A DNA stretch of 64,000 bases. It comes from Saprospiraceae bacterium. Its GTDB lineage: Bacteria; Bacteroidota; Bacteroidia; Chitinophagales; Saprospiraceae. A program made the position numbers and the translations under genes. Shown one piece after another: positions 117-58,439 of the stretch; position 1 is the stretch's first letter; each line of letters opens with the position of its first letter. The notes below the pieces were generated by a model. It was not told the DNA's origin. It saw only the letters and a program-made list of their open reading frames with translations, and searched no databases. The stretch is from NCBI GenBank assembly GCA_020630495.1, contig JAHDBH010000002.1:3273-67272 (forward strand), written 5' to 3'.

Positions 117-1598
117 CTACTGCCCTTTAGCGAGGCGCGCGTGGTTTTTCTTGATATACTGCGCGGCCATTTCTCCGCTGATGATGCTCGGTGGCACACC
201 AGGGCCTGGGACTGTGAGCTGACCAGCATAGAGCATATTGCTCAGTGATTTATTGATCAGTGTCGGTTTGAGTACTGCCGTCTGCCGTAGTGTGTTCGCC
301 AGTCCGTAGGCATTGCCCTTGTACGCGTGATAGTCAGCCTGGAAATCTCGATGAGCGTAGCTACGCTTGTAGATCACATGCTCGCGGATGGTCTGCCCAG
401 TGAGTCGCTCGAGTCGGGACATGATCATATCATAGTATCTCTCGCGCACCTTGGGCGTATCCTCTAGTCCTGCGGCTACGGGTACGAGGAGGAAGAGATT
501 CTCCTTTCCTGTAGGAGCTACGGATGGATCTATCATAGAAGGGCAGCACGCGTAGAAGAGCGGCGCATCAGGCCACTGAGGATCATCGTAGATCTGTGTG
601 CTGTGATGCTCCAGCGACTTATCAAAGAAGAGCGTGTGATGCTGTAGCCCCTGGAGCTTCTTGTCGACTCCCAGATAAAATAGTAGGCTGCTCGGAGACA
701 TCACCCGCTTGTCCCAGTACTCCTCACTATAGTTTCTTACTGCAGGCGGCAACAGCGACTCCATATGATGATAATCGCCCGTAGCCACTAGTGTTTCCAC
801 GGGGATTTCTCTACCTTTTATGTGCAGACTGCTCACCCGTCCTTGGTTTACTTGGATGGATTCCACAGGACTATCTGTGTGGATCCGCACGCCCTGCTCC
901 TCAGCGATCTTCACAAATCCCTTGATGATCTCATGCATGCCACCCATCGGATACCAAGTACCCATGTACAGGCCCGCATAGTTCATCAGGCTATAGAGAG
1001 CGGGAGTTCGCTCGCTGGATGCACCGAGAAAAAGCACGGGAAAGTCCATCAGCGCGATCAGTCGCGGGTCCTTGAAGAGTCTGCGCACATACTTACCAAA
1101 AGACCCAAAGAGATTCATTCTCAGCGCGGCGCTCATGACCTTGGGCTGTACAAATTCTAAGATGCTCAAGCCAGGCTTATACACCAGGTCATTCATAGAG
1201 ACATCATACTTTTCCTTGGCCTCTTTCATAAATCGCCGTAGCTTATCCGCCGCACCCGTCTCTATCTGCTCAAACAGTTCTAGGATGGCCGCTTCACCCG
1301 CTGGCAAGTCCACCACATCTCCTTTGCCAAAGTACATACGGAAACCAGGATCCAGCTCACGTAGGTCATAGAAGTCTGGGACCTTTCGGTCAAATGCCGC
1401 ATAGTACTTCTCAAACACATCTGGCATCCAGTACCAGCTCGGCCCCATGTCAAAAGTGAAGCCCTCCGCCTGGAACATACGCGCACGACCACCAGCCATG
1501 CTATTCTTCTCATAGACATCCACCTCGTGGCCATCTTTAGCAAGGTAAGACGCCGCACTCAGTCCCGCAAATCCTGATCCTATCACTTGACATCGCAT
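117..1598 (-). CDS. crtI: Phytoene desaturase (CrtI family)
   Basis: N-terminal FAD Rossmann motif VIGSGFAGLSAASYLAKDGHEVDVYEKN; C-terminal YAGQLTVPGPGVPPSIISGEMAAQYI. Confidence 0.93.
   Translation of the reverse strand: MRCQVIGSGFAGLSAASYLAKDGHEVDVYEKNSMAGGRARMFQAEGFTFDMGPSWYWMPDVFEKYYAAFDRKVPDFYDLRELDPGFRMYFGKGDVVDLPAGEAAILELFEQIETGAADKLRRFMKEAKEKYDVSMNDLVYKPGLSILEFVQPKVMSAALRMNLFGSFGKYVRRLFKDPRLIALMDFPVLFLGASSERTPALYSLMNYAGLYMGTWYPMGGMHEIIKGFVKIAEEQGVRIHTDSPVESIQVNQGRVSSLHIKGREIPVETLVATGDYHHMESLLPPAVRNYSEEYWDKRVMSPSSLLFYLGVDKKLQGLQHHTLFFDKSLEHHSTQIYDDPQWPDAPLFYACCPSMIDPSVAPTGKENLFLLVPVAAGLEDTPKVRERYYDMIMSRLERLTGQTIREHVIYKRSYAHRDFQADYHAYKGNAYGLANTLRQTAVLKPTLINKSLSNMLYAGQLTVPGPGVPPSIISGEMAAQYIKKNHARLAKGQ
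1380..1396 (+). repeat. GAAA-hairpin motif copy 1
   Basis: GACC-TTTC-GGTC-AAATG. Confidence 0.7.
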
Positions 1599-1763
1599 GC
1601 ATGCTTAAAGTCCAGAAGCAGACAGAATGTTGACTGATACGCTGCCTTATGTGGGGAGTCATGGTCCACCTCAGGATGGATGAAGCACTCTTTTCTGGAA
1701 CAATCCTAGGTACGCAACTGCGTAGTATGCTCCGCAGAAATCCGAGAATTGCCGCATGATACG

Positions 1764-1952
1764 GCAGGGTCAATCCTGCAGCTGTATCAAGTAGATGATT
1801 GACTTGATGATCAAGACATGGTTAGCTGCGGGGAATACCCCGCAGCTACCATTCAAAGTATTGCAGAACTGCAGGGTGAACCCTGCAGCTACAGAGCATT
1901 AATGATTAACAACATGAATCCAATATGTACATCTGCGGGGTTCACCCAGCAG
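1764..1952. repeat. Cluster of four short palindromes (REP-like)
   Basis: 1764-1779 GCAGG..CCTGC; 1823-1848 TAGCTGCGGGG-AATA-CCCCGCAGCTA; 1869-1888 CTGCAGGGT-GA-ACCCTGCAG; 1933-1952 CTGCGGGGT-TC-ACCCAGCAG (one mismatch). Confidence 0.65.
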
Positions 1953-2154
1953 CATGATCACCAGTGATAAAGAGCTGAAGCCATTTTATGAGTCGATCTA
2001 GGGCCATACATTACGTGCTCATCTCAAGAGATAAGCAGTCTGTCTATTATTATAGTGTACTAGATCAGCAGTCCTTAGCTTTAAGATCTCAAGCGGGGAC
2101 GCAGGATTCTCTGTTGATGAGCTCGTCGCCACATACTGCTTAATCACCACCACC

Positions 2155-2430: not shown

Positions 2431-2560
2431 TCTGCCAATCTGTCTGTGATCTGCTCACTTGCCGTGCATCATGTCAGATATCATACGCCATGGTTGCCGT
2501 GGTATGACTTTTGACCCATGATGATCGCTCGCAACAGCGCGCATCACTAGAGCATAGCAC

Positions 2561-4984: not shown

Positions 4985-5047
4985 TCTGTGGTAGATCTAT
5001 TTTCTTAAAGCCTTGTTAATACTATCCAAACTGACCAGTGGCAACGA

Positions 5048-5758: not shown

Positions 5759-5853
5759 CGAGCTCGGATCGCTTATTTGCCCGACAGGGCGCGAACTCTT
5801 ATCCTATCCTGGCAGTTAGCTGATCGTACCAGACGACTTACGCCATCTCAGAT

Positions 5854-6834: not shown

Positions 6835-8426
6835 GACGATTTGCGCAATTATATAAAGAAATTGACAGCACCACTCGCGTCCTCCCTAAGGTAAAGGCTC
6901 TGGTGGATTATTTTCGCGAAGCGCCAGATAGCGAGGCGATATGGGTCATCGCATTATTTACACATCGCCGACCAAAGCGACTTATCTCCACTACATACTT
7001 GCGAGAGTGGGCTATAGAAATCAGTGGATTATCTCCATGGCTATTCGAAGATAGCTACCATATCTGCGGTGATCTCGCTGAGACTATCTCTCTGGTGCTA
7101 CCGCCACCTAGTAAATACGTCAGCCATCCCCTTTCCTATTATTTTCAGCAAATGGTAAATCTGCGTGGTGCAGAGACAGAGGTAATCCGCGAGTGGATCC
7201 TGGACACGTGGGATAGCCTGCCGCATCAGGAGCGCTTTTTATTTTGTAAATTTATTACGGGTGGATTTCGTGTAGGTGTGTCAGATAAGTTACTCGTACG
7301 CGCACTGGGGCAAGCCCACGATGTAGAAGAGAGTGACATGGCTTACAAGCTCATGGGTGATTGGACGCCTATGGATACTGAATTAAAAGATTTACTCGCA
7401 GACGATCACTCTACCAATATCGCTCGACCCTATCCATTTTATCTAGCTTATGCGCTAGAAAAAGAAGCAGAAGATCTCGGAGATCCAGGTGAATGGAGCG
7501 CCGAGTATAAGTGGGACGGTATCAGATCTCAATTGATCAAGCGAGCAGGTGAGTGGTTTCTCTGGTCGCGCGGTGAAGATTTAATTAATGAGTCATTTCC
7601 AGAATTTTCTGGCTTACTGGATCTGCCAGATGGAACAGTCATCGATGGAGAATTAATAGCCCATGATCCAGACCACACTGATGTCACTCCCCATCCCAGC
7701 GAATTTAATGCTTTACAAAAAAGACTAGGAAGAAAAAAGCCTGGCAAAAAAACCCTAGAGAATTATCCAGTCACCATCATCGCTTACGATCTACTAGAAT
7801 GGAATGGTAAGGATCTAAGGGAGCGGGCTTTCGCCCAAAGGCGCGAGCTATTAAAGTCTCTCGTCATAGATCAAAACAATTCGCTCCTCCGCCTATCTCC
7901 CATCATAGAATTTAATGATTGGGATACGGTGCGAGAGCTACGAGAAAATGCTCGTAACTATGGTGCCGAAGGTCTCATGCTAAAGCGGCTAGATAGCCCT
8001 TATAAGGTGGGAAGAAAAAAAGGCGATTGGTGGAAATACAAAGTGGATCCATATACGATAGATGCTGTCATGACCTATGCCCAGAGTGGACATGGACGTA
8101 GGAGCAATTTATTTACAGATTTCACCTTTGGCCTGTGGGAGGATGGCGAATTAATCACATTTGCCAAAGCCTATAGTGGTCTTACAGACGTACAATTTAG
8201 AGAAGTCTCCAAATTTGTCAGAGCTCATACGCTCGAGAAATATGGTCCTGTGAGAAAAGTCAAGGCAGAACTCGTGATGGAACTGGCATTTGAGGGAGTG
8301 CATCTATCCAGTAGACACAAGAGCGGTGTGGCAGTACGCTTCCCACGTATCAAGCGCTGGCGCAAAGACAAAACCGCCGCCGAGGCCGATCAGCTATCCA
8401 CACTCAAAGCGCTGATAGGTAACTGA
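6831..8426 (+). CDS. ATP-dependent DNA ligase
   Basis: Nucleotidyltransferase motif EYKWDGIRSQL; downstream motifs EGLMLKRLDSPYKVGRKKGDWWKYK; ATGA overlap with exonuclease. Confidence 0.93.
   Translation: MRRFAQLYKEIDSTTRVLPKVKALVDYFREAPDSEAIWVIALFTHRRPKRLISTTYLREWAIEISGLSPWLFEDSYHICGDLAETISLVLPPPSKYVSHPLSYYFQQMVNLRGAETEVIREWILDTWDSLPHQERFLFCKFITGGFRVGVSDKLLVRALGQAHDVEESDMAYKLMGDWTPMDTELKDLLADDHSTNIARPYPFYLAYALEKEAEDLGDPGEWSAEYKWDGIRSQLIKRAGEWFLWSRGEDLINESFPEFSGLLDLPDGTVIDGELIAHDPDHTDVTPHPSEFNALQKRLGRKKPGKKTLENYPVTIIAYDLLEWNGKDLRERAFAQRRELLKSLVIDQNNSLLRLSPIIEFNDWDTVRELRENARNYGAEGLMLKRLDSPYKVGRKKGDWWKYKVDPYTIDAVMTYAQSGHGRRSNLFTDFTFGLWEDGELITFAKAYSGLTDVQFREVSKFVRAHTLEKYGPVRKVKAELVMELAFEGVHLSSRHKSGVAVRFPRIKRWRKDKTAAEADQLSTLKALIGN
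7825..7840 (+). repeat. GAAA-hairpin motif copy 2
   Basis: GGGC-TTTC-GCCC-AAAG. Confidence 0.7.
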
Positions 8427-11946: not shown

Positions 11947-11964
11947 CATTTGCCCGAAAGGGCA
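11947..11964 (-). repeat. GAAA-hairpin motif copy 3 (noncoding)
   Basis: Plus strand CATTTGCCC-GAAA-GGGCA. Confidence 0.75.
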
Positions 11965-15600: not shown

Positions 15601-15769
15601 TATAGGGACCGATATGTCTCCACTCCAGAGCATCATATCGATGAAGTAAAGGATCCTCCATCACAGCTGCAGTACTGCTGCTACGCAATGCTTTTTTAGA
15701 CATTTTCCTTTGGGCGAAAGCCCCTATGCTCATAAGAGCCAAGAGAAATACAATGACAGACTTCTTCAT
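12641..15769 (-). CDS. Secreted sortilin/VPS10-like BNR-repeat (WD40/YVTN) protein
   Basis: Repeated SxDGGxTW motifs; signal peptide MKKSVIVFLLALMSIGAFAQ sets the start at 15769 rather than 15841. Confidence 0.88.
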   Translation of the reverse strand: MKKSVIVFLLALMSIGAFAQRKMSKKALRSSSTAAVMEDPLLHRYDALEWRHIGPYRGGRSCTVAGVEGKPLLYYQGSTGGGVWKTTDGGNSWHNISDGYFGGSIGAIAVSQSDPNVIYVGGGEQTLRGNVSYGYGMWRSVDAGKTWTSIGLKESRHIARIRVHPDDPDIVLAAVIGDIYKGTSERGIYKSLDGGVTWKQVLYVNQDAGACDLTYDPSNHRIMYASTWNVRRTPYSFSSGGEGSALWKSMDGGDTWEDISARDGLPGGTWGISGVAVSPVDGDRIYAIIENAKGGVYRSDDGGDSWKLINSDRSLRQRAWYYTRIYAGTQSIDDVHVMNVGYHQSSDGGKSWKRLGTPHGDHHDLWIDPNDDQRMVIADDGGAQVTTDKGENWTTYYNQPTAQFYRVTTDHAFPFRIYAAQQDNSTIRIASRTTGWSIGERDWESTAGGESAHIAVHPENNEVVYGGSYDGFLTRLDHRTDALRAINVWPDNPMGHGAEEMKYRFQWNFPIFFSPHTADRLYTASNHLHVSTDEGQSWQTISPDLTRNDSTKLGSSGGPITKDNTSVEYYCTIFAAAESPRIQGVLWTGSDDGLVHVSQDGGDNWSEVTPAGLPKWAQINDLIADPHHDGGCYIAATSYKSGDYQPYLYRTRDYGATWKRIDRGIDRSHFTRAIEVDPVVPELLYAGTESGMYLSYDDGNQWYPMQLNLPVVPITDLKAKDESLVVATQGRSLWIMDDLSAIRTLSVQSSDDYVIYPAKGAYRMRGGQGRSRSAGTNHASGVQLHYYIDSVHTDDTLIMTIFTEQMDTVRSFSSAEKGAEGWSPESGSNTFSWDMRLPPATRFDGMILWWASLSGPVAKPGGYIARLSVNGEDVTSQAFHIHSDPRLSWKDADYQAQYDFEMSVYEKVDEAHRAIKSMRQVREQMEFYDHRLSEDEEDIRGLASDIDSVMTDIEESLYQTQNRSGQDPLNFPIRLTNKLAHLNSLSQMGEGPPTAQSIAVRDELIARIDEQLDRYEQIKTEMIPQYNRLIREREVKAISLPD
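15708..15723 (-). repeat. GAAA-hairpin motif copy 4
   Basis: Plus strand CTTT-GGGC-GAAA-GCCC. Confidence 0.7.
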
Positions 15770-17660: not shown

Positions 17661-17786
17661 GACGTTGTAGTATTAAGAGTGAAGAGTTAAACAAATGAGT
17701 CATCTGGTCACGAGATAGTGTACCACTGACACGAAGATAATTAAAGTGTAAGTATATTTGATCAAATTGTTACTAAATCTCCTCTG

Positions 17787-20726
17787 ATGCCAAACAAGCA
17801 ACTATTCTTGTCTCGACAGTTCTTGACGATATCGCTAGTCTTGATACTTACTAGTGGGGCTTTCGCCCAAATATCTGTCTCAGGAAAAATTACCGACGCT
17901 ACCACAGGCGAAGGCCTCATCTCTGCTAATATCACCGTGGAGGGCACTGATGATGGGACTTTCACGGATATCGAAGGTAACTATCAGCTCACCTGCGCTG
18001 CTGACGCTACTCTGCTGATCAGCTATGCGGGCTTTGAATCGCAGACCATCGTCGTAGATGGACGGACTACTATAGATGTGGCACTCACAGAAGGTAAATT
18101 ACTAGATGAAGTCGTGGTCATCGGCTATGGTGAAGTAAAAAAAGAAGATCTCACTGGCGCCATCCAGACTGTAGACTCCAAAGACTTTAATAAAGGTGTC
18201 GTCACCAGCGCTCAGCAGATGCTCGCAGGTAAAGTAGCGGGAGTATCCGTCACAGTAGGTGGAGATCCTGGTGCTGGTGCGACTATACGTATCAGGGGAG
18301 AATCCTCCATACGAGCGAGCAATGATCCGCTCTATGTGGTCGATGGTGTACCTTATGATTTTGGTGGTGTAGGAGGAAGCAGAAATCCGCTCAATGTCAT
18401 CAACCCTACTGATATCGCTACTATCACTGTACTTAAAGATGCTAGTGCCACGGCAATATACGGAAACCGCGCCTCGGGAGGTGTCATCCTCATCACTACC
18501 AAGACAGGACGCATAGGCACAGGCTGGAAAGTCAATTACTCTGGAAAGGCCTCTCTCAGCAACACCGTAGGTCGTGTAGATGTACTCGATGCGGATGAAT
18601 TCAGATCGCTGGTGACGGACAGATTTGGCGAAGAAAGTGATCAGTTTGCTCTGCTGGGCAATGCGAGCACAGATTGGCAAGATGAGATATATCAGCAGGC
18701 CTTTGGTATGGAGCATACGGTAGGTCTCAGCGGTGGTATAGGCAATGTACCTATACGCGCCTCTTTTGGTCTGTCTGATCTCGATGGAGTCTTGAGGACT
18801 GAGGAATTTAATCGCTATACAGCCAATATCAATATCAATCCCCGCTTACTTGATAATAAGCTTCAGCTCAACTTTGGCCTCAAGGCCTCGCGTGTAGAAA
18901 ATCTATTTGCTAATCGTGGTGCTATAGGTGCAGCTGCGAGTTTTGATCCTACGCAGCCTATCATTGATCCTCAGGGAAATGAATTTGGAAATTACTTCGC
19001 ATGGCTCAAGCCAAGTGATCGCTCTACCGTCGTAGGACTATCGGATGCTAATCCTATCGCTCTACTAGAGCAGTCTCGCGATGAGACCACAGTCAATCGA
19101 TTAGTGACAAGCTTCTCAGCGGATTACCGCATGCCCTTCTTGCCTGCTCTGAGAGCTAATATCAATGTAGCCTATGACTATAGCCAGGGTGAAGGGACCA
19201 ACTTTACTGATTCCATCGCAGCGCATTCTAATACAGGCTTTTTCAGTGAATTTAGCGGTGAGCGAAAAAACAGTCTGCTAGAATTTTATCTCAACTATAA
19301 GCAAGACATTAGCAGTAGGGCCAAGCTCGACCTGATGGCGGGCTATAGCTATCAGAGATTTGAAGAAGAAGGCAGAGCAAGAAGTGAAGAGCTGACTACA
19401 AAACTCGTGGTGGCTGACACCAGTGCGCAGGAGCTCGTCCTCATAGGTCTATTTGCCAGAGCTAATCTGGTGTGGAATGAGGATCTGATGCTTACAGCTT
19501 CTATCAGGCGAGATGGTACATCAAGATTTAGTCCAGACAATCGCTGGGGATTATTTCCCAGTGCTGCTATCGCTTATCGACTGGTGGATAATGACAAAGA
19601 CTATCTCAATAGACTCAAGGTGCGCGCAAGCTGGGGCATCACGGGCCAGGAGAATATAGGCCTGTACTACGCTTACCAAGGTCTCTACACTGAAAGCCAG
19701 GTCACTGCTCGATATCAATTTGGCGATCGATTCTTCTTCACACAGCGACCCAATGGCTACGACCAGTTTATCCGCTGGGAAGAGACCACTACTCTCAATG
19801 TCGGCATGGACTTTTCACTGGTCAAAGACCGTATCTCTGGAACACTTGATTTCTACAAGCGTGATACTCGCGATATCCTCAATGACATACCAGTATCAGC
19901 AGGCGCCAATCTCACTAATTTCCTCACTACCAATGTGGGTAATCTCACCAATCGCGGTGTAGAACTTGGTCTCTGGATCACGCCCGTGAAGAATGATAAA
20001 GTCACGTGGGAACTCTCTACCAATGCCGCTCTCAATAGTAACGAAGTGGTAAAGCTTACTGCTATCGACGATCCAGACTACATAGGTATCCTCACAGGAG
20101 GCATAGCAGGTGGTGTGGGATCCAATATCCAGATTCACAGCGTAGGATTCCCTCTGCGCTCCTTCTTTGTATTTGAGCAAGCATACGATGATGAGGGAAA
20201 TATCATCCCTGGAGAATATGTAGATAGAAATGGTGATGAGGTCATCAATGAAGCGGACAAGTATCGATTTGAAAATCCAGCGCCAGATGTAGTGCTTGGA
20301 CTTACGTCAAATCTCAATGTGGGAAATTTTGATTTCTCCTTTGCTGGACGAGCTAATCTGGGTAACTACGTCTATAATAATATCAAGACAGATGGTGGAT
20401 TCCTAGGACGAGTCAATCGTATCAGCGATGCTCTGAGTAATCTGCATCGCTCTGGCGTGGATAATCAGGTCGAGAATCAATCGCAAGTGACATTTAGCGA
20501 TCACTTTGTGGAGAAAGCTAGTTTCTTCCGCATGGACCACATTACCATGGGCTATAAATTTGAAGACGGTCTATTTGATTACCTACGTCTCTACGCTACC
20601 GTGCAGAATCCATTTATTATCACGCAGTATGATGGATTGGATCCGGAGGTATTTGGTGGTATTGATAATAATCTTTATCCGCGCTCAAGGATGTTTGTCC
20701 TCGGTGTGGATATCAACTTTAATTAA
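17787..20726 (+). CDS. SusC/RagA-family TonB-dependent outer membrane protein
   Basis: Carboxypeptidase-like N-terminus, LDEVVVIGYGEVKKEDLTGAI, plug domain PLYVVDGVPY...TVLKDASATAIYGNRASGGVILITTK. Confidence 0.97.
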   Translation: MPNKQLFLSRQFLTISLVLILTSGAFAQISVSGKITDATTGEGLISANITVEGTDDGTFTDIEGNYQLTCAADATLLISYAGFESQTIVVDGRTTIDVALTEGKLLDEVVVIGYGEVKKEDLTGAIQTVDSKDFNKGVVTSAQQMLAGKVAGVSVTVGGDPGAGATIRIRGESSIRASNDPLYVVDGVPYDFGGVGGSRNPLNVINPTDIATITVLKDASATAIYGNRASGGVILITTKTGRIGTGWKVNYSGKASLSNTVGRVDVLDADEFRSLVTDRFGEESDQFALLGNASTDWQDEIYQQAFGMEHTVGLSGGIGNVPIRASFGLSDLDGVLRTEEFNRYTANININPRLLDNKLQLNFGLKASRVENLFANRGAIGAAASFDPTQPIIDPQGNEFGNYFAWLKPSDRSTVVGLSDANPIALLEQSRDETTVNRLVTSFSADYRMPFLPALRANINVAYDYSQGEGTNFTDSIAAHSNTGFFSEFSGERKNSLLEFYLNYKQDISSRAKLDLMAGYSYQRFEEEGRARSEELTTKLVVADTSAQELVLIGLFARANLVWNEDLMLTASIRRDGTSRFSPDNRWGLFPSAAIAYRLVDNDKDYLNRLKVRASWGITGQENIGLYYAYQGLYTESQVTARYQFGDRFFFTQRPNGYDQFIRWEETTTLNVGMDFSLVKDRISGTLDFYKRDTRDILNDIPVSAGANLTNFLTTNVGNLTNRGVELGLWITPVKNDKVTWELSTNAALNSNEVVKLTAIDDPDYIGILTGGIAGGVGSNIQIHSVGFPLRSFFVFEQAYDDEGNIIPGEYVDRNGDEVINEADKYRFENPAPDVVLGLTSNLNVGNFDFSFAGRANLGNYVYNNIKTDGGFLGRVNRISDALSNLHRSGVDNQVENQSQVTFSDHFVEKASFFRMDHITMGYKFEDGLFDYLRLYATVQNPFIITQYDGLDPEVFGGIDNNLYPRSRMFVLGVDINFN
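17857..17872 (+). repeat. GAAA-hairpin motif copy 5
   Basis: GGGC-TTTC-GCCC-AAAT. Confidence 0.65.
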
Positions 20727-20738
20727 GCAAGAGATATC

Positions 20739-23694: not shown

Positions 23695-23833
23695 TGCTTT
23701 TTTGTGATTTGAGTTAATGATAATTGAGTTCTGAACAGTTGTGAAAAGATTAAATCATCCCTTCATTGCTATCAAGATGTACTCTTGCTTGTACATAGCA
23801 GCATTTGATCGACAGATCGCTAGCTCGTATCGA

Positions 23834-25735
23834 CTATTGCATATCTTCCTTCTCCACTTGACGTATGATCAGATCTACACACTCTGGATTGAGTAATGTG
23901 GAGGTATCGCCGATCCCATCGCTTTCGCCGCATGCGATCTTGCGTAGGATACGGCGCATGATCTTTCCAGAGCGAGTCTTAGGTAGTGAGCTGACGATGT
24001 AGATGCGATCAGGCGTCGCTACAGGACCTATGATCTTGCGCACAGTGAGGCAGACGTCACTACTCAGATCTGGTCTGTCTATATCACAGATCACAAATGC
24101 ACATATGCCCTGGCCCTTGATATCGTGTGGGTATGCGACTACTGCAGACTCTATGACAGAGGATTGCTCATTGATGGCATTTTCTATTTCTGCTGTGCCT
24201 AGACGATGGCCAGATACATTGATGACGTCATCCACTCGCCCTATGACACGTATCCTACCATCGGCATCGCGGCGGGCACCGTCGCCTGTAAAGTATTTGC
24301 CTGAAAAGGCTGAAAAATACGTCTGTCTGCAGCGCTCATGATCTCCGTAGGTGGTCCTGATCATAGAGGGCCACGGATAGTCGATGCAGAGCAAACCCTC
24401 TTTCTCATTTTCCTCGATCAAGTCTCCCTCGGGTGATACAAGTACGGGTCTGATGCCTGGAAGCGGATATGCAGCGTAAGTCGGCTTAGTGTCAGTAATT
24501 CCTGGCAAGCTAGTAATCATGATACCACCTGTTTCTGTCTGCCACCATGTATCTACTATAGGGGCTCGGTGTCTGCCTATGTACTGATTGTACCAGTGCC
24601 ACGCTTCCTCATTGATGGGTTCGCCCACGGTGCCGATGACCTTGAGGGCGGAGAGATCGTACTGCTCAGGGAAGTGATGGCCATGCACCATGAGTGCACG
24701 GATGGCTGTGGGAGCAGTGTAGAACTGGGAGACGCGATGCTGCTCACATATCTGCCAAAATCGTCCAGCATCAGGATAAGTAGGAACTCCCTCATACATC
24801 ATGGTAGTCGCTCCAGCGAGTAGAGGACCATAAATGATATAGGTATGTCCTGTGATCCATCCTATATCAGCTGTACACCAGTAGATATCGCCTGGATCAT
24901 ACTGAAACACATTGGTAAAACTGTAGGCGGCGTAGACCATATATCCAGCCGTACTATGGACTACGCCCTTGGGCTTGCCGGTGCTACCAGACGTATACAG
25001 GATAAATAGCGGATCCTCACTCTCCATGACTGTCGCCTCACACGTCCGTGAAGCACGCTGCATCAGCTCTGACCATCTATGATCATGATCATGCCATGAT
25101 ATATCTCCACCTGTATGAGCGTGAACTATGACGTGCTGCACACTATCACAGGATAGCTCCATCGCGTCATCTACTACAGCTTTGATAGGAATGATCTTAG
25201 CTCCTCTACGACTATAGTCACTGCAGATGATCATGGATGCCTGCGCGTCATCTACTCGATCAGCGAGCGCCTGAGCAGAGAAACCAGCAAAGACTACGCT
25301 GTGTATGGCTCCTATGCGAGCACAGGCGAGTACAGCCACAGCTAGCTCAGGGACCATAGGCATGTACAGTACCACTCTATCCCCTTTTCCTATGCCCAGA
25401 TCAATCAGTGCAGAAGCACACGTACAGACTCGCTGGTGTAGCTCGGCGTAGCTGATGGAGACAGAATCCTCTCCAGGATCATTGGGCACCCAGAGGATAG
25501 CCGTCTGATCGGACTTATCCTTGAGATGTCTATCCAGACAGTTCTCACTGATATTGAGCTGAGCACCCTGATACCACTTTATACTCGGCTTTTCAAAGTT
25601 CCATTCTAGTGTGGTATGGTGTGGCTTTCGCCAAAAAAAATGCAGGGCCATATCTGACCAAAACCCTTCTGGATCAGATATACTCCGAGCGTACTGCTCC
25701 TGATAGTCTGCGGGCGTGCGCATGCGTAGCGGCAT
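23834..25735 (-). CDS. acs: Acetyl-CoA synthetase
   Basis: YTSGSTGKPKGVVHS, WWQTETGGIMIT, C-terminal PKTRSGKIMRRILR. Confidence 0.95.
   Translation of the reverse strand: MPLRMRTPADYQEQYARSISDPEGFWSDMALHFFWRKPHHTTLEWNFEKPSIKWYQGAQLNISENCLDRHLKDKSDQTAILWVPNDPGEDSVSISYAELHQRVCTCASALIDLGIGKGDRVVLYMPMVPELAVAVLACARIGAIHSVVFAGFSAQALADRVDDAQASMIICSDYSRRGAKIIPIKAVVDDAMELSCDSVQHVIVHAHTGGDISWHDHDHRWSELMQRASRTCEATVMESEDPLFILYTSGSTGKPKGVVHSTAGYMVYAAYSFTNVFQYDPGDIYWCTADIGWITGHTYIIYGPLLAGATTMMYEGVPTYPDAGRFWQICEQHRVSQFYTAPTAIRALMVHGHHFPEQYDLSALKVIGTVGEPINEEAWHWYNQYIGRHRAPIVDTWWQTETGGIMITSLPGITDTKPTYAAYPLPGIRPVLVSPEGDLIEENEKEGLLCIDYPWPSMIRTTYGDHERCRQTYFSAFSGKYFTGDGARRDADGRIRVIGRVDDVINVSGHRLGTAEIENAINEQSSVIESAVVAYPHDIKGQGICAFVICDIDRPDLSSDVCLTVRKIIGPVATPDRIYIVSSLPKTRSGKIMRRILRKIACGESDGIGDTSTLLNPECVDLIIRQVEKEDMQ
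25622..25642 (+). repeat. GAAA-hairpin motif copy 6
   Basis: TGGC-TTTC-GCCA-AAAAAAATG. Confidence 0.7.
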
Positions 25736-35352: not shown

Positions 35353-37926
35353 TTAATTAAGTCGCTGTGCAAGTACACAACTTTCCTTAACTGTACGCGT
35401 GACCCCGTCGAGGGTAAAAAACTCCCCAAAGATAATGTAGATGCCAGGTCTGGCTTGTCCTCCGCCTACTATTTCTCCCGACCATCTCAATATGTCACCT
35501 GTACCAAACAATGTATTGTCTGCAAGAGATACTATCTCCCGTCCTTCGATATCGTACACTTTTACGGTCCCTAGTGCTCCCACAAGATCCTCTTGCAGAT
35601 GTAAGACGAGAAAGTCCTTGTATCCGTCACCATCTGGTGAGAAAGTTTTATTCTCGATCTGAAGCATACTGCTAGTTTGAGCTACGATTCGCTGCGAGTT
35701 CACCGCTGTGGGAGTGGCGCCGCCCGAGCTTGCGGATGCGGAGAACCAGTTTTGTCTGTCTTGAGTGCTGGCCATCAGACTTAGCCTCTCGAGAGATACG
35801 CCCTTCGTCTCATCCAAAAGCGCGAAATGCAAATCCTCATCATAGTCAAAGGAATCAAGTGTAACGCCAGTAGGCCCTAGCAGACTTACATTGCCGTCAC
35901 TTTTATTGAAAGATGGTATATCCTGCTCTATGAGGAATGCTGGTTGAGCTACGCTGTATCGCGCCAGGATGTCTTCACGATCATCCGTGAAAACCATGAT
36001 GCCACCAGGCGCGATCAGAGAGACTCCAGTGATAGCATCTACTTCGTCCTTGGCAAGATTAGCTAGTTGTACGCCAGCTAGAGAGACGAAGCGATCTGTG
36101 GCGTTGATAATCTCGACAAAGTCCGCCCCGCCCGACTGAGGATCAGATAATATCTCGTGGATAAGCAGGTCTCCAGGACCAGGACTGAAAGGGCGCACAA
36201 GTAGCAATGTACTATCAGATCCTAATGGCTTACCTACGCAAGTGGAGACTGCACTGGAGACAGTCAGACTCAGCTCCATACCCAGCTCGGGTGCTTGAGA
36301 AAGGCTCAATATCACGCTAGTCTCCTCTGCTGATAGACCAGCGCCTACGATAGATATAGTAGCATCAGAAAGAGTGTAATTGGCTATCGCGGAGCTACTA
36401 GGAGCTAGTCGCTGATTAAATCGCAGCTCGTACATGGAATCTGATAGGAAGGCATGATCTACAAGTTTCAGCTCTACCGCAGTCGTGTCATAAATGCTAT
36501 TTCTAGCACCTGGTGTGCCACCGATAATGGCTTGACTAGCTGCCCAGTTGAGTCGAGAGAGGCACGACTTATCTGGATCGATTCTCTCAAGGGAATATCC
36601 CCCATCCTCTCGATCAGCATCCCTGTACCAGGCATCAGTCCAGTCCACATGATCGAGCAACTCACCACTTATAGAGCTTTCTATAGCGATGGGCTCGCCG
36701 CGATTAGTAATGCCAGGAAAAGTGCTTAATCCTATAGCCCGACCGAGAGAGATAAACTGATCTACATCTGAGTCATCACATAGGATGACGTAACTCTCAG
36801 GGAATAGCGTATCTAGCGGCAGGGCATCGCGCTCTGTACCCACGAGTAGATCTATGGATGAGAGGTCGATAAACTCTGACGAAGCATTGTATATCTCTAT
36901 CCACTCTGCATCTGGCAATCCCACAAGCGGTGTAGGGTCGGCCATGATCTCAGTGATGTACACCTGATCGGAGTGAGCATCTAGCAATTCCACATAGAAC
37001 AGTGATCCCCTGACGTCCGCTGTACTATTACCGTTGCAATTAAGTACTGTGGCGATATCGAGCTCATAGTCTTGACCACTGACTAGCGGTGTGGCTAACT
37101 CTAGGGTAAGGGATCGTCCATCTACGCTCACACTAGCGATATCTACCCCTGGACTCAGCGAGTAATTACTGATATCCATCGCTGACATCTCATCAAGAGT
37201 CTGAGACATCTCGACTTGCAGTGCAGTAGAGCTAAGAGCTTCTAAGGAAGTAATCTCTAAGGGTGCATCAAGTAAGGGATTTTCAGCGTCGACGTAGATA
37301 TCATCAAAGAAAAATTGCTTAGTCCTACTGCTCGTAAATGATGATCTGATTCCCAGATATACGTCGCTGGGAAGTGAGATGGCTTCTGTCCAGCTGAGTG
37401 TCTCTGTGAAGCACACATCATCACTATAGGTGATCTCTATCTTCCAGTCACTGGCCGACTGCGATACTCGACATCGCAGCTCAGAGTCCTGCTGGGCAAG
37501 TGAACCTAAAGACCCTCTCGCAACTACCGTGGTGGTGCCTGACGTATAGCGTATGACCTCTAGAGCGTCTTCACTCCCTGATTCACCCCACTCTAGCGCA
37601 AGCCCAGATGCCAGGGGATCTAGAGGATCTTCTGTCCATAGCAGGATCTGCACAGCATTACTACCACTCGGGGCAAATTCTAATCTCGCATAGATTTCCC
37701 AACTGTGATCTGCGCTAGCTAGCAGATTATACTGTCTGAATATCTGAGCCGATCCAGCGGCATCTGCATCAGAGCGTAGCTCACCGCTGATCACTGTAAA
37801 GTCACTCAGGTCACCTGACCAGAGCGGACTTTCCAGGACTGTGATGGTGCTGAAGTTCTCGGACATTTGCGCGAAAGCGCCCACGCACCAGAGGCTCACC
37901 ATAGACATCAACAGAATTCTCATCAT
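35353..37926 (-). CDS. Lamin-tail-domain secreted protein
   Basis: Signal peptide; two LTD-like segments (VYITEIMADPTPLVGLPDAEWIEIYNAS; LLIHEILSDPQSGGADFVEIINAT); FSPDGDGYKD C-terminal region. Confidence 0.8.
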   Translation of the reverse strand: MMRILLMSMVSLWCVGAFAQMSENFSTITVLESPLWSGDLSDFTVISGELRSDADAAGSAQIFRQYNLLASADHSWEIYARLEFAPSGSNAVQILLWTEDPLDPLASGLALEWGESGSEDALEVIRYTSGTTTVVARGSLGSLAQQDSELRCRVSQSASDWKIEITYSDDVCFTETLSWTEAISLPSDVYLGIRSSFTSSRTKQFFFDDIYVDAENPLLDAPLEITSLEALSSTALQVEMSQTLDEMSAMDISNYSLSPGVDIASVSVDGRSLTLELATPLVSGQDYELDIATVLNCNGNSTADVRGSLFYVELLDAHSDQVYITEIMADPTPLVGLPDAEWIEIYNASSEFIDLSSIDLLVGTERDALPLDTLFPESYVILCDDSDVDQFISLGRAIGLSTFPGITNRGEPIAIESSISGELLDHVDWTDAWYRDADREDGGYSLERIDPDKSCLSRLNWAASQAIIGGTPGARNSIYDTTAVELKLVDHAFLSDSMYELRFNQRLAPSSSAIANYTLSDATISIVGAGLSAEETSVILSLSQAPELGMELSLTVSSAVSTCVGKPLGSDSTLLLVRPFSPGPGDLLIHEILSDPQSGGADFVEIINATDRFVSLAGVQLANLAKDEVDAITGVSLIAPGGIMVFTDDREDILARYSVAQPAFLIEQDIPSFNKSDGNVSLLGPTGVTLDSFDYDEDLHFALLDETKGVSLERLSLMASTQDRQNWFSASASSGGATPTAVNSQRIVAQTSSMLQIENKTFSPDGDGYKDFLVLHLQEDLVGALGTVKVYDIEGREIVSLADNTLFGTGDILRWSGEIVGGGQARPGIYIIFGEFFTLDGVTRTVKESCVLAQRLN
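37864..37880 (-). repeat. GAAA-hairpin motif copy 8
   Basis: Plus strand CATTT-GCGC-GAAA-GCGC. Confidence 0.7.
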
Positions 37927-43600: not shown

Positions 43601-44364
43601 TTTACATGTCCCGTCACGTTATAGGTCACCACATTTCCCTGTAGTACGTATTCACACTCGATAGGATCCATCATCTGGGCGTCCTGATAGGCAACAGGTG
43701 CTCTCTCTATGACCTCATCGACCGATGTGCTCACATGCAGATCTCCATTGATGATACTCAGTCCATCAGTTCCTACATAGCGGATTTGTATATCCCTGAG
43801 GTCGGCTCCTGGTGCTACCACATAGTCATACTTCAGACCACCGTCTTTATTGTAAAAGCGCAGATCTATTCCTTCATAGAGATTTACATATTGGATCTCT
43901 TCGTAGACCTGTACACGTGATGCCCATTTGTCAGGATCACTTCCCAAAAAGTAATTTACGTAGTGATCAGCCGGCTTTTTCGCGACAGCGAGCGTGTGGT
44001 CATGCGGATTTACAAATTCCATATAGTAGTTATGACCTCTGACCTGATTCAGGGACTCTGCGGTGCTATGGCTATGATCGTGCTCTATAAGTCCACTAGA
44101 AGTGTGGGCATGACCGTGATTGTCAGCTTTCTGCACCAGCTGGACGGCTATACGATCCTTCTCTAGCGTCATCATGGCTCCAGGCGCTTCCATTTTGTAA
44201 AGCACTTCGGCTGGCCACTGGCCTTTATTTTCTATAAACTGATAAGGGCTTCCCTCGATTTCCTGCACGGTCATAGTCCCTTTCGGGAAAATGCCTGGCA
44301 GGACCACAAAGGCCATGGAAAATACAGAAAGAGGAAGCAAAAGAAGGATGGATCTCCTGATCAT
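40621..44364 (-). CDS. SBBP/beta-propeller and PKD-domain T9SS-secreted protein
   Basis: N-terminal YQFIENKGQWPAEVLYKMEAPGA; repeated STFIGG-type motifs; PKD WDFGDGNSSTEVNPTHTYAIPGTYFVTL; C-terminal LFPNSPNPFGEFSYFAF. Confidence 0.85.
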   Translation of the reverse strand: MIRRSILLLLPLSVFSMAFVVLPGIFPKGTMTVQEIEGSPYQFIENKGQWPAEVLYKMEAPGAMMTLEKDRIAVQLVQKADNHGHAHTSSGLIEHDHSHSTAESLNQVRGHNYYMEFVNPHDHTLAVAKKPADHYVNYFLGSDPDKWASRVQVYEEIQYVNLYEGIDLRFYNKDGGLKYDYVVAPGADLRDIQIRYVGTDGLSIINGDLHVSTSVDEVIERAPVAYQDAQMMDPIECEYVLQGNVVTYNVTGHVNPDVPLIIDPELVFASFSGATGDNWGFTATFDDESNTYGGGVAFGNYPTTPGAFQTARGGGDTDVSISKFSEDGTTLIYSTFIGGDGADAPHSMIVNSEGQLVVMGSVGSSDWPTLENSYDRSFNGGDFQDVSSITYRVGVDIGLVTLSEDGTELIASTYVGGSETDGLNLISPVNQNYGDAFRGEIILDQDDNVVVVSSTDSPDFPVTAGAYDEVLDPGTEQDACVFKLSKDMSSMIWATYLGGEDDQAGISVRIAESDQSVYVQGWAMGSEFPTTEGAFKTNYTGGPADAFVSRLSADGSELMASTFLGTTNEDYGYLLDLDAEGNVYAVGQSARGAYPISDDVYSVPSSSLYLQKLSADLSESIWSTQLGNGSGGIRGRLVPTAFLIDNCSRIYLSAWGGLTNSADDINGMPLTSDAFQSTTDGSDFYLMVLEPEARSLTYGSYIGGGLAAEHVDGGTSRFDKRGIVYQAVCSGCGGFSDFPVTPGVVSETNNSTNCNIAVFKFDFQLEPLSVDAQIESETTCLGDEIQFTNLSVGADRFLWDFGDGNSSTEVNPTHTYAIPGTYFVTLLGVSDESCEGSDEASLVITVAGVDCGSLRAGPDQELGTPDETAFLEGRFAGCGTFAWTGGTGTFSDRSDPMSTYVLSDDEAAAGCAILVATLTDSTETCTDTMKISVFVPESTQLLWDLNDCEASAGQTKVYDEFQVLDFDGISCAEIEVSNIFRLDPQRNRHSCTLGPDSTRAMCVSSLDGCDYVENSARAVRFSVTVNAVGDNKVRIDRLDFWEAAPEIFDWLGGTSGENDRPTLYGIRILRDGVEIFREIDIETTVDWTLESFDFGSVDEMTVDGSAEFMFELLPYCTSGNEDIPINAWDLDNVTLTLSCSNALRDEPIATDRSISEDDKDQGIFLFPNSPNPFGEFSYFAFRMEKAARASFVIYTAQGVELYRKDGAYDAGHHTLRITSADLGGYRGMLYYSVTTTDQRAVKSAIIE
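44277..44293 (+). repeat. GAAA-hairpin motif copy 9
   Basis: TCCC-TTTC-GGGA-AAATG. Confidence 0.7.
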
Positions 44365-48031: not shown

Positions 48032-48211
48032 TTCCTTGTTTGTTTGATCTGTAATGACCCAAAAGTAATATGCGAGTCCCAAGAATGCTTAAGGAATTGA
48101 AACTTCTGACCTGAGCGTCGCGGAGCTACCTATTTTGTACGTGTAGGCGAACCATACTATCTAGTAGGCATTTGGCTGACAAGCCTAGAGAAAAGCAACA
48201 TCTTTGCACCT

Positions 48212-48952: not shown

Positions 48953-49889
48953 TATTACCTCCAGTCTGCGCAGTCTCCTCGCGCTACTTCTTGTCATCTC
49001 CCTAGCAGCTTGTAGTACGACTAAGTCCTCTACCGCTGACACTATCAAGCCTAGTACTAAGAAAGACGCTCCTCTAGAAAAGAGTCTCCTCTGGGAAATC
49101 AGTGGCAAGAACATCTCGCAGCCGAGTTATCTCTTTGGTACGATACATATCATAGATGCTGACAGATACTTTTTGCCGAAAGGCACCCTCGAAGCAATCG
49201 ACAATACAGATATTATGGTATTTGAGATAGATCTGGCTGATATGGAGGATATGGATCAGATCATGGGTCTACTCATGAGCGCTATGATGGAAGGTAATGT
49301 CACTATCAAAGATCTGGTGAGCGAAGAAGACTACGCTATGATCAGCAAGCACTTCTCTGACATGGGCTTACCCTTCATGATGCTCGAGCGCATCAAGCCG
49401 ATGTTTCTCAGCATGATGGGCGGAGATATAGATATGGGAAGTCTGCAATCTGGCGAGATGACAAGCTACGAACTCAAATTTGGCGAGATGGCCAAAAGCA
49501 AAGGCATGGAAACCGCTGGGCTCGAAACTATGGAATTTCAGATGAGCCTATTTGATAGTATTCCCTATGATGATCAGGCTGTGATGCTCGTAGAAAGCAT
49601 CAAGTCTGGCGGTGGCGAATCAGATCTCATGGAGAAGATGATGGATACTTATACCACTCAGGATGTGGATGCCCTGGCGGAGTTCATCACCAGCGAGAGC
49701 GGTGATGTAGCAGGATTTGAAGACAATCTGATCACTAAGCGCAATCACGCCTGGATACCACAGATCAAGAAACTCAGCGGAGATCGACCAGCATTCTATG
49801 CTGTGGGGGCAGGGCATCTAGGAGGCAAAGAAGGTGTGATACGACTACTGCGCCAGGAGGGCTATACTGTCCAGGCGATCAATAAGTAA
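48945..49889 (+). CDS. TraB/GumN-family protein
   Basis: LLWEISGKNISQPSYLFGTIHIID ... FYAVGAGHLGGKEGVIRLLRQEGYTV. Confidence 0.92.
   Translation: MHNITSSLRSLLALLLVISLAACSTTKSSTADTIKPSTKKDAPLEKSLLWEISGKNISQPSYLFGTIHIIDADRYFLPKGTLEAIDNTDIMVFEIDLADMEDMDQIMGLLMSAMMEGNVTIKDLVSEEDYAMISKHFSDMGLPFMMLERIKPMFLSMMGGDIDMGSLQSGEMTSYELKFGEMAKSKGMETAGLETMEFQMSLFDSIPYDDQAVMLVESIKSGGGESDLMEKMMDTYTTQDVDALAEFITSESGDVAGFEDNLITKRNHAWIPQIKKLSGDRPAFYAVGAGHLGGKEGVIRLLRQEGYTVQAINK
49169..49185 (-). repeat. GAAA-hairpin motif copy 10
   Basis: Plus strand CTTTT-TGCC-GAAA-GGCA. Confidence 0.7.
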
Positions 49890-49892: not shown

Positions 49893-50411
49893 ATGGCGCT
49901 CATCCGTAGCATCAGGGGTATCACTCCTACTATCCACGATAGCTGCTGGCTAGCGGAGTCGGCTACTATCATAGGTGATGTACTGATAGGCGAGCAATGC
50001 AGTATCTGGTACCATACCGTGCTGCGCGGAGATGTGTGCACTATCACTATGGGTAATCGATGTAATATCCAAGATGGAACTATCATACATGGCACACTAG
50101 ATGAATCATCTACCACACTCGCTGATGATGTGTCTATAGGTCATGGCGCCATATTACACGGCTGCTACATAGATCATCATGCGCTCATAGGTATGCGTGC
50201 CACTGTACTTGATCATGTGCACATAGAACCCTATGTGATCGTCGCAGCAGGAGCACTAGTGCCATCAGGAAAGCGTCTAGAGAGTGGGTGGATATATGCA
50301 GGCCTTCCGGCCAAAAAATGGAAAAAAGTAACAGAAGTGCAAAAAGAGAAATTGCTCTACGACACGCCAAAACGATACGTAAAGTATAGCGATTGGTATC
50401 GTGATCTATAG
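49893..50411 (+). CDS. Gamma-class carbonic anhydrase-like protein (left-handed beta helix)
   Basis: Hexapeptide repeats; CSIWYHTVLRGDVCTITMGNRCNIQDGTIIHG; SIGHGAILHGCYI. Confidence 0.92.
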   Translation: MALIRSIRGITPTIHDSCWLAESATIIGDVLIGEQCSIWYHTVLRGDVCTITMGNRCNIQDGTIIHGTLDESSTTLADDVSIGHGAILHGCYIDHHALIGMRATVLDHVHIEPYVIVAAGALVPSGKRLESGWIYAGLPAKKWKKVTEVQKEKLLYDTPKRYVKYSDWYRDL

Positions 50412-55687: not shown

Positions 55688-55709
55688 CCATAGCTCACAC
55701 AGCCACTAG

Positions 55710-57575
55710 CTAGTATTCCAAAATATATGCTCCAGGTCCGTCGAGGATCATATGATCGGCGCCTACGGTACATGAGGCACTCTGGATGACAATCTCAGGC
55801 GTGCCTTGGCTAGCTAGGCGCTCTGAGAATCGATTCAGATCGAGGCTGTAGGGCTCTTCATTCTTATTGATCACTACCATCACCGTGTGGTCATCATCAT
55901 ATCTAAAGTATACATACACACCGTCTTTTGGCACGTAGTGCATGAGCTGTCCATGATGTATGGTGGGATGTGATTTTCGCCAGGTAAACAGCTGTCTGAC
56001 CCATTCTTGGGCTGTACTCTCTGTCTCTGACAGGCCTTTGCCTGAAAAGGCATCCCGACTATCACCCCTCCATCCACCAGGGAAATCACTGCGTATGACA
56101 CCATGACTCTCTGTCCCAGGATGCGACATGAGGATCTCTGTACCGTAGTAGACTTGTGGTACACCTCGTAGAGTCGCTGTGAGGACAAGAGCCATCTGGT
56201 AGCTGGTATAGTCTTCGTTCACTTTCGTGAAAATGCGCGTCATGTCATGATTATCAGGAAATATGACGAGGTCAGCTGGATGAGGATAGAGATGATCCTG
56301 TGCTAGGGTCTCGTAGATCTGAATGAGTCCTGTGTTCCAGCCTTCATCCTCAGTCAATGCGGCATGCATAGACATGCACACAGGAAAATCCATCTGATGG
56401 CTCAAGCACGAGTGAAAATCAAACTTGTCTCTAGCGATCTTATTGTCGCGCATCCAAAAGGCGATAGTAGATGGATCGTCTGTCCACTCTTCTCCTACAA
56501 TCGTAAATCCTGGATACTCCTTGTAGATAGCACAGGTCCACCGTCCCATAAAATCTCTATCAGGATAGCTATAGGTATCTTGCCTGATACCGCTGATACC
56601 TGAGTCCTCTATCCACCAGATGGAATTTTGGATGAGATATCTCGCCATGTAGGGATTGCGCTGATTGAGATCTGGCATGGTAGGCACAAACCATCCGTCC
56701 GTCATAGTAGTCCTATCGATCTGGGAGCGATATGGGTCAAGCAGAGTAGCCTTGCGATGTGAGGTCTGCTGATAAGGACCAGTCTGATGATTGAGCCAAT
56801 CCTCAAAAGGTGGATCCCGCATCCACCAGTGCTCTGATCCACAGTGATTGGCTATCTGGTCCATGATCACTTTGATACCCATATTTCTAGCTTGAGACAC
56901 CATGTCTCTGTACTCGTCATTGCTCCCGTATCGGGGATCTACGCGGTAGTAATCTGTGGTAGCATAGCCGTGGTAGGATGCATGAGGCATATCATTTTCG
57001 AGTACAGGATTGAGCCATATGGCGGTAAATCCCATCTCACCGATATAGTCGAGATGCTCTGTGATACCTGCTATATCGCCGCCATGTCGTCCGTAGGGCT
57101 CTGCACGATGGAGACTATCAGCCATGTCAGCAAATTCATCATTACGTGGATCCCCATTGGCAAATCTATCTGGCGTGATGAGATAGAGTGCATCACTTTG
57201 ATCAAAGCCTTGGATCTCTGCCGCTCCTGCTCTACGAGCGCGTAGCTCATAGGAGATGCAGTCTAGCTGTCCATCTGAGGCCGTAGGACAAATATCAAAA
57301 CTACCTGGCGCTGAGGCCACTAGTGCAACATCAAGAAAAACATAATTATCGGAATCTGCCTTATGCTGCTCTAGGAGATCTACCTTATCACTGCTTATAG
57401 ACCAGGACCGCTGACCCACCTGAGGACCATGGATCATGATCTGGATCGTATCCATCTCCATACCTACCCACCAGTAAGGTGGCTCCACTATCAGTTCCTG
57501 CTGCTGCGCCGCGAGGTCTGTCATTGCTGTGACGAGTAGACATATATAGAGTATATGTAGTGCACGAGATATCAT
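55710..57575 (-). CDS. GH13 alpha-amylase family enzyme with cyclomaltodextrinase-type N-domain (SusA/neopullulanase-like)
   Basis: EPPYWWVGMEMDTIQIMIHG N-domain; catalytic motifs GIRQDTYSYPD, TIVGEEWTD, FPDNHDMTRI. Confidence 0.93.
   Translation of the reverse strand: MISRALHILYICLLVTAMTDLAAQQQELIVEPPYWWVGMEMDTIQIMIHGPQVGQRSWSISSDKVDLLEQHKADSDNYVFLDVALVASAPGSFDICPTASDGQLDCISYELRARRAGAAEIQGFDQSDALYLITPDRFANGDPRNDEFADMADSLHRAEPYGRHGGDIAGITEHLDYIGEMGFTAIWLNPVLENDMPHASYHGYATTDYYRVDPRYGSNDEYRDMVSQARNMGIKVIMDQIANHCGSEHWWMRDPPFEDWLNHQTGPYQQTSHRKATLLDPYRSQIDRTTMTDGWFVPTMPDLNQRNPYMARYLIQNSIWWIEDSGISGIRQDTYSYPDRDFMGRWTCAIYKEYPGFTIVGEEWTDDPSTIAFWMRDNKIARDKFDFHSCLSHQMDFPVCMSMHAALTEDEGWNTGLIQIYETLAQDHLYPHPADLVIFPDNHDMTRIFTKVNEDYTSYQMALVLTATLRGVPQVYYGTEILMSHPGTESHGVIRSDFPGGWRGDSRDAFSGKGLSETESTAQEWVRQLFTWRKSHPTIHHGQLMHYVPKDGVYVYFRYDDDHTVMVVINKNEEPYSLDLNRFSERLASQGTPEIVIQSASCTVGADHMILDGPGAYILEY
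56218..56235 (+). repeat. GAAA-hairpin motif copy 11
   Basis: TTCAC-TTTC-GTGAA-AATG. Confidence 0.7.
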
Positions 57576-57931
57576 AGTTGATCGTATCTATCAGTGATGA
57601 GAAGTGTATCGCCTGCGGTGAGATCTGCACGGCGATTGGGTTGATTGTACAGTTCTATCTGATCTCCGAGCTGGTACTTGTACTCCAGCTCATCCCATGG
57701 CAGATCAAAGGTCAGAGTGACTTCGTACGCACCGCCCTGCGATGCAGGCTTCATCTCGGTAGGCTTATTCCAGTCGAGAGGTGGTTCATTTCCTAGGATT
57801 TTTGGTCGTGCCGTACTGTCCACTTGAGTACTCACATCACAGACAAAAGTGATCGTAGTCTTCTGCGTATCCTGTACGCAGGCACCTCCGAGTAATAGTA
57901 GAGCAAATAGGCAATAGTTTCTAAGCTTCAT
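57572..57931 (-). CDS. CBM20-like starch-binding small lipoprotein
   Basis: Lipobox-like LLLGGAC; KILGNEPPLDWNKPTEMKPASQGGAYEVTLTFDLPWDELEYKYQLGDQIELYNQPNRRADL; ATGA overlap with the GH13 gene. Confidence 0.7.
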   Translation of the reverse strand: MKLRNYCLFALLLLGGACVQDTQKTTITFVCDVSTQVDSTARPKILGNEPPLDWNKPTEMKPASQGGAYEVTLTFDLPWDELEYKYQLGDQIELYNQPNRRADLTAGDTLLITDRYDQL

Positions 57932-58439
57932 TTCTACGTACTACTTTATGGATCAAGTAATCAAGACTCCATCTACCACCGCCTAGCACAGCAGTGTATA
58001 CAGCCACCCACAGAAAACCCATGGCTGGCAACATAGCCCATGTGCCCTGTCCCCATTTCTGACAGAGTATAGCTACCGCCATAGTGATGATGATCAAGAC
58101 CGCATGCCAGCGTGTAAGCAATCCTACTGCCAGCAATATGCCGCCTACTGCCTCAGCATATCCCGCCATCCAGGCAAAGAACTCTGGAAAAGCTGCAAAT
58201 AACCCACCGTACTCGGCTACATCCTGAGGAAACCAATAGATGATCTCAAAAAGATCTAGCTTCCTATGGTCTGGCGTCCAGGGCATACCAAATTTGCTTG
58301 CGCCAAATTCCAGAGCGAGCAGCATACCCATGATAAACCGTGGTATGGTGAGCGTCAAGTCTATCAGCCAATTGGCAAGTGGGACTTTCGTCCAAATGTG
58401 GCTGGTGCGACCAAGTAGTATCGACAGTGTCCTTTTCAT
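57921..58439 (-). CDS. DoxX-family membrane protein
   Basis: RFIMGMLLALEFGASKFGMP; EAVGGILLAVGLLTRWHAVLIIITMAVAI. Confidence 0.82.
   Translation of the reverse strand: MKRTLSILLGRTSHIWTKVPLANWLIDLTLTIPRFIMGMLLALEFGASKFGMPWTPDHRKLDLFEIIYWFPQDVAEYGGLFAAFPEFFAWMAGYAEAVGGILLAVGLLTRWHAVLIIITMAVAILCQKWGQGTWAMLPAMGFLWVAVYTAVLGGGRWSLDYLIHKVVRRNEA
58382..58398 (+). repeat. GAAA-hairpin motif copy 12
   Basis: GGAC-TTTC-GTCC-AAATG. Confidence 0.7.

Follow-up and report, generated by a model that had tools for sequence, protein, structure and literature searches.

A dispersed DNA hairpin with a covarying stem and strand-specific spacing in Saprospiraceae, possibly a self-DNA tag read on single strands

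The 64,000-nucleotide stretch of a Saprospiraceae bacterium genome analysed here (GenBank assembly GCA_020630495.1, contig JAHDBH010000002.1, positions 3,273 to 67,272 of the forward strand; hereafter the window) carries many copies of a small hairpin element with the consensus 5'-CATTT-[NNNc-GN(A/C)A-gN'N'N']-3', the complementary strand of which has AAATG after the stem. The element is a DNA-level signal and is strand-specific, and there are more than 1,000 copies per genome, a figure which, like all genome-wide totals with every loop counted, is extrapolated from the parts analysed. We propose that it is a chromosome-wide signal set by the fold of a single strand, placed once per 4–5 kb on each strand, that would serve the recognition or protection of self single-stranded DNA in exchange or repair and that has diverged into lineage dialects; we consider the chances that this description is right to be about even. 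To our knowledge, known genome-wide DNA signals (Chi, uptake sequences, the FtsK-orienting polar sequences KOPS, and HIP1) are fixed strings of letters, and in our judgement the element is new, in that we know of no dispersed signal defined by a covarying single-strand DNA hairpin. No prior description of the motif was found in the literature on uptake or Chi sequences in Bacteroidota.

We used two genomes, that of the window (G000; 3.53 Mb, a draft in 331 contigs, with detailed analysis on 420 kb) and that of a sister species (G001; a draft metagenome bin, 99% complete, with detailed analysis on 1.98 Mb). Over the whole of G000, CTTTCGNNNAAANG occurs 445 times and the reversed pattern 17 times; the whole-genome counts for the strict pattern and its reversal in G001 are 618 and 15. 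When CTTTCGNNNAAA was collected from the 420 kb of G000, a choice in which pairing was not used, all 76 of 76 sites had stems of at least 2 bp and 68 of 76 had stems of at least 3 bp, where chance would give 1/16 and 1/64 respectively. Pairing is also specific to the core, with stems of at least 3 bp around 43% of CTTTCG hexamers in the same 420 kb against a hexamer average of 1.8%. In 1,479 genes of G001 we observed 726 elements and only 44 after codon-preserving shuffling (332 and 6.5 for CTTTCG alone), and the window contains 21 elements against 0.35 in dinucleotide shuffles. An earlier note on this DNA had proposed a genome-wide recognition element with a covarying stem, and that proposal is strongly supported; the shuffle comparison that the note had named as able to refute it is passed by a wide margin. 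Counting every loop, the 1.98 Mb of G001 contain 814 sites, or 1 per 2.4 kb.

The core CTTTCG, which the earlier note took to be constant, is only the commonest version. An unbiased scan of all hexamers revealed enrichment of a stem plus A-run also for CTGTCG, CTTCCG, CTTACG, CTGCCG, CTTGCG, TTGTCA, TTTTCA, GTTTCC and GTGTCC, and these belong to the same family. The arms covary at all four pairs, including the closing pair, at which C-G dominates, and the loop reads T(T/G)NC, or GN(A/C)A on the opposite strand (GAAA, GACA, GGAA, GTAA, GCAA, GGCA and GTCA). A GNRA-type loop with a C:G closure had been suggested, but the loop set is not GNRA, as GACA, GGCA and GTCA fall outside it. The loop set was learned from the same data, and spacing played no part in its choice. 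Nakano et al. 2002 (cited in PMC5090098) list d(cGNNAg) in their title among four motifs for thermodynamically stable DNA tetraloops, and the loops of the element fall inside this class. A T opposite the first A of the A-run is avoided (0.13–0.16), so that the stem stays at four pairs and the flank is left unpaired. Weak preferences among the outer letters differ between the species: in G000 they are for CGT following AAATG and for G at the second base ahead of the stem, in G001 for G five bases after AAATG. This suggests a species-level dialect that extends past the hairpin.

All 12 hairpin copies initially reported in the window are present, with coordinates off by at most about 1 base. The initial count of about 24 CTTTCG/CGAAAG hexamers, about half of them with stems, is also correct, since 12 of 24 combine AAA with a stem of at least 3 bp; in the remaining 12 the flanks pair over 0–1 bp. 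Variants of the loop or closing pair add 9 copies, giving 21 in the window with all loops counted. Coordinates below are those of the 17-bp element, and the strand is that which carries TTTC.

1380..1396, + strand, GAC-CTTTCG-GTC-AAATG
5774..5790, - strand, loop variant GCC-CTGTCG-GGC-AAATA
7825..7841, + strand, GGG-CTTTCG-CCC-AAAGG; the sister species keeps the hairpin, with the loop changed to CTTACG
11947..11963, - strand, GCC-CTTTCG-GGC-AAATG; intergenic
15707..15723, - strand, GGG-CTTTCG-CCC-AAAGG
17857..17873, + strand, GGG-CTTTCG-CCC-AAATA
23802..23818, - strand, loop variant GAT-CTGTCG-ATC-AAATG
24294..24310, - strand, closing-pair variant GCC-TTTTCA-GGC-AAATA
25622..25638, + strand, TGG-CTTTCG-CCA-AAAAA
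33418..33434, + strand, GCG-CTTTCG-CGC-AAAAG
37864..37880, - strand, GCG-CTTTCG-CGC-AAATG
43975..43991, - strand, loop variant TCG-CTGTCG-CGA-AAAAG
44277..44293, + strand, TCC-CTTTCG-GGA-AAATG
48169..48185, - strand, loop and closing-pair variant GGC-TTGTCA-GCC-AAATG
49169..49185, - strand, TGC-CTTTCG-GCA-AAAAG; the sister species keeps the hairpin, with the loop changed to CTGCCG
50301..50317, + strand, loop variant GGC-CTTCCG-GCC-AAAAA
54978..54994, - strand, closing-pair variant AAG-GTGTCC-CTT-AAATG
56035..56051, - strand, closing-pair variant GCC-TTTTCA-GGC-AAAGG
56219..56235, + strand, TCA-CTTTCG-TGA-AAATG
58382..58398, + strand, GGA-CTTTCG-TCC-AAATG
62552..62568, - strand, weak candidate with an A-T closing pair, GCA-ATGTCT-TGC-AAAGA

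The sites are not independent of one another in orientation. Neighbouring sites in G001 are opposite in orientation in 64.1% of 794 pairs (z 7.9), a proportion reached in 0 of 2,000 orientation permutations, and an independent test in G000 gave 101 opposite pairs among 144 (70%, z 4.8). Second or later neighbours in G001 show no orientation effect, and the alternation holds for gaps of more than 1 kb (63.8% opposite). Three controls in G001 were flat, with 50.2% opposite pairs for stemless CTTTCG, 51.3% for hairpins with the same loops and no A-run, and 51.1% for the loop with AAAT and no closing pair. Alternation thus needs the stem and the A-run together, and is independent evidence that the entire figure is the functional unit. 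The alternation results from mutual exclusion of copies on the same strand over distances of up to about 4 kb. Within 4 kb, same-strand pairs are found at 0.59–0.82 of expectation, and at greater distances at about 1; opposite-strand pairs are found at 1.0–1.17 of expectation, or 1.43 below 250 bp. Same-strand gaps have a mean of 4.6–4.9 kb and a coefficient of variation of 0.72–0.79, and so are more regular than random. Gene orientation favours same-strand neighbours and therefore cannot account for the alternation. Local clusters are also seen, one in G001 (C8:141887-142237) with two forward and then two reverse copies within 350 bp, and one in G000 (C49:9761-9905) in which three forward copies follow each other at intervals of about 65 bp.

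Selection can act on complementary arms of free sequence only where the strand folds, and as four pairs are unlikely to extrude from a duplex, the DNA that the reader encounters is probably single-stranded. That copies exclude each other within but not between strands suggests that the unit counted is a single strand of about 4–5 kb, or one direction of travel. The reading of folded single-stranded DNA is known mainly from transposases, integrons and phage polymerases. We suggest that the mini-hairpin would be read in its folded form when chromosomal DNA is transferred or recombines and the strand that bears it is single; for each single strand of about 4–5 kb one site would suffice, a second site nearby on the same strand would gain nothing, and the opposite strand would need its own. 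The likeliest job would be that of a self-DNA tag, favouring the uptake, protection or RecA-mediated integration of DNA from kin.

The main rival is a Chi-like signal, at which a helicase-nuclease of the AddAB or RecBCD kind, travelling from a double-strand break, would switch mode on meeting a correctly oriented element; each strand would need one site every few kb. Chi and the element are alike in being strand-dependent, over-represented and spaced a few kb apart, the per-strand spacing of 4.6–4.9 kb and the same-strand exclusion are expected of a directional signal, and both G000 and G001 encode an AddA-like UvrD-PDDEXK helicase-nuclease (1,034–1,047 amino acids). However, Chi is an unstructured, fixed string of 5–8 letters that are read linearly in the tunnel of the enzyme, where a covarying stem has no role, whereas the element is a covarying hairpin with a flank and shows no replichore bias. 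The AddA-like protein is also present in motif-free relatives, and an AddB-like partner was not found by local tblastn in the half of G001 searched, the one weak match being a short unrelated protein. We consider a Chi-like role unlikely overall; if the reader proves to be AddAB, the element would be a variant of Chi.

The position of the sites relative to genes and replichores bears on several other explanations. The element sits mostly inside genes and on both strands (of the genic sites in G001, 403 are sense and 325 antisense). There are 0.40 sites per kb of genic and 0.55 per kb of intergenic DNA, with a codon-phase preference in genes that reads GCT TTC GCC AAA. Motif strand is unrelated to GC skew, the large G001 contigs giving 119/121, 81/82, 65/78 and 55/59. 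Within the window, one copy lies inside a gene for an ATP-dependent DNA ligase (6831-8426; N-terminal, middle and C-terminal domains), which adjoins a DUF4403 protein; the window also includes a glycan-uptake locus (15864-22949) for a SusE/SusF-like protein, a TonB-dependent receptor (SusC-like) and a SusD-like protein, and an alpha-amylase family enzyme is encoded at 55710-57575.

RNA recognition had been offered as one possibility. The signal in transcripts would then be a GNRA hairpin that has a U-run on its 5' side; GAAA, GGAA, GTAA and GCAA are indeed GNRA loops, and there is a slight sense excess in genes. That excess follows codon phase, however, the remaining loops do not fit, the kilobase-scale strand alternation ignores genes, and there is no Rfam match in the window at the gathering score. 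With coding copies on both strands, spacing indifferent to genes and replichores, and GN(A/C)A loops, recognition as RNA is not supported and we regard it as very improbable. The earlier observation that this is not an ordinary terminator stands, as the A-run follows the stem on one strand, the T-run precedes it on the other, and sites occur throughout genes; an intrinsic terminator was rejected on the same grounds, the T-run not being placed after the stem and sites not being confined to gene ends.

Regular per-strand spacing would also be consistent with a chromosome-organising or replication-restart site, in which hairpins on exposed single strands would be bound by a protein that acts in the nucleoid, in primase loading or in repair; phages and plasmids are known to have primase and restart sites that depend on hairpins. 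We think this improbable, given that there is no leading/lagging bias, that presence is patchy with loss between sister species, and that the rarity of sites in atypical islands suggests exchange over housekeeping. The lowest-GC windows of G001 have 0.09 sites per kb, down from about 0.5 per kb. A motif-free 13.8-kb stretch of 37.6% GC in the same genome (C19:73500-87280) has predicted sulfotransferase-like, aminotransferase-like and glycosyltransferase-like proteins, and by its gene content may be a surface-polysaccharide island, perhaps recently acquired.

Alignment with the sister species, at about 64–75% nucleotide identity, shows 5 of 31 sites to be conserved, two of which, at 7828 and 49177 in the window, have a changed loop in an intact hairpin. 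Non-conserved sites mostly align without gaps, which indicates birth or decay by substitution in place. The minimal repeat family envisaged in the earlier note is therefore not supported, since sites arise by in-place substitution and no Y1 transposase was found in G001, and we find it scarcely credible that these are repetitive extragenic palindrome (REP)-like hairpins mobilised by a Y1 transposase of the REP-associated (RAYT) type, or another mobile repeat. In being a hairpin on a single strand, with a short flank conserved on its 5' side, the element does resemble REP anatomy and the ends of IS200/IS605 elements, and one Y1 fragment is present in G000. However, G001 has about 600 strict-pattern copies without that transposase, the 4-bp stems are free in sequence and differ from copy to copy, there is no longer repeat around them, and the mostly gap-free alignments argue that sites were not inserted.

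Two further systems share features with the element. The phage N4 virion RNA polymerase promoters and the d(GCGAAGC) mini-hairpin are small, very stable single-stranded DNA hairpins with a G-A type loop, and like the element they have a variable stem, but the N4 promoters are a few phage promoters, whereas the element is chromosome-wide, on both strands and unconnected with transcription. HIP1 and other highly iterated palindromes are likewise of very high copy number, lineage-restricted and mostly genic; HIP1 is a single fixed duplex palindrome (PMC4390886), whereas in the element the stem varies and orientation matters.

The distribution of the element is narrow and uneven. Among 395 genomes of the class, the strict pattern reaches high density only in the genus of the window, and a loose pattern is in excess only in Saprospiraceae among 138 genomes of the phylum. 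Within Saprospiraceae (398 genomes) the excess is patchy both between and within genera: it is found in most of g27 but not in G661, in G708 but not G730 of g311, in only G687 of the sampled genomes of g7, and in only G696 of g34. Dialects in G571, G545, G708 and G027 have a shorter stem and mostly GNAA loops. A possible relation to the GCTTTCGCGAAAGC palindromes of marine flavobacteria, raised earlier, finds no support, there being no excess outside Saprospiraceae. Presence in g30 was rejected, as an unrelated repeated palindrome, GCCTTTCGGCGAAAGGC, inflates the counts; in G030 it is often beside T-runs or A-runs in a terminator-like arrangement, and it gives about 380 loose-pattern matches there. 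A virus origin was also rejected: six viral contigs hold one exact 17-mer and none has a run of further strict copies, although several of the stretches are too short for motif density to be judged.

Many of these properties are hallmarks of uptake sequences (PMC1939737, PMC2346458, PMC3630211). Like the DNA uptake sequences (DUS) of Neisseriaceae and the uptake signal sequences (USS) of Pasteurellaceae, the element is present in hundreds to thousands of copies, coding and non-coding, far above chance, and ComEC and DprA are both present, though also in motif-free relatives. A classical double-stranded uptake sequence, to which a pilus protein would bind at the cell surface, would account for the copy number, balance of orientations, mixture of coding and intergenic sites, in-frame preference and dialects, all of which match DUS and USS. 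We nonetheless judge it quite improbable. DUS and USS are fixed sequences served by type IV pilus machinery, whereas the element is a fold in which the letters of stem, closing pair and loop are free to vary, and a search for PilB/PilT-type ATPases (PF00437) gave none above the cut-off in G000 or G001. Copies of the element exclude each other within one strand only, whereas the orientation of USS is reported not to affect uptake (PMC1939737). On our preferred reading the element would work like an uptake sequence or Chi and yet belong to neither class, since it has no fixed sequence and, in the case of uptake sequences, there is no pilus ATPase.

Our preferred, if tentative, explanation is a tag for self-DNA or for recombination that is read on single strands, and we would give it slightly less than even weight. 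Births by substitution, poor conservation of position, the lack of gene or replichore bias, rarity in islands, patchiness and dialects are all traits in common with uptake sequences, and sites of such a tag would spread, as uptake sequences do, by point mutation and biased inheritance. Several observations weigh against it. We found neither a reader protein nor any gene whose presence follows that of the motif; DprA and ComEC occur with and without the motif, and competence genes were rejected on this basis as the cause of motif presence or absence. With no pilus ATPase in the genus, DNA would need another entry route. Predicted folding energies of single-stranded 23-mers (-1.5 to -5 kcal/mol) are similar for both strands and so do not separate them, and it is the loop pattern, not energy, that indicates the GNNA strand. 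Depletion at low GC is partly compositional, and the spacing test covers two species, both of them draft metagenome assemblies. A pilus ATPase was likewise rejected as the cause, being absent in g1 and found in g34 in both the motif-positive G696 and the motif-negative G549; these two genomes encode full-length T2SSE/PilB-type ATPases, unlike most of the family sampled.

A shape that is kept while its letters change, together with spacing set strand by strand, points to a protein able to read single-stranded DNA in its folded form, and same-strand exclusion provides a statistical signature that can be searched for in other genomes. If the proposed role is correct, it would have to be asked by what means Bacteroidota that lack type IV pili exchange their DNA or repair it.

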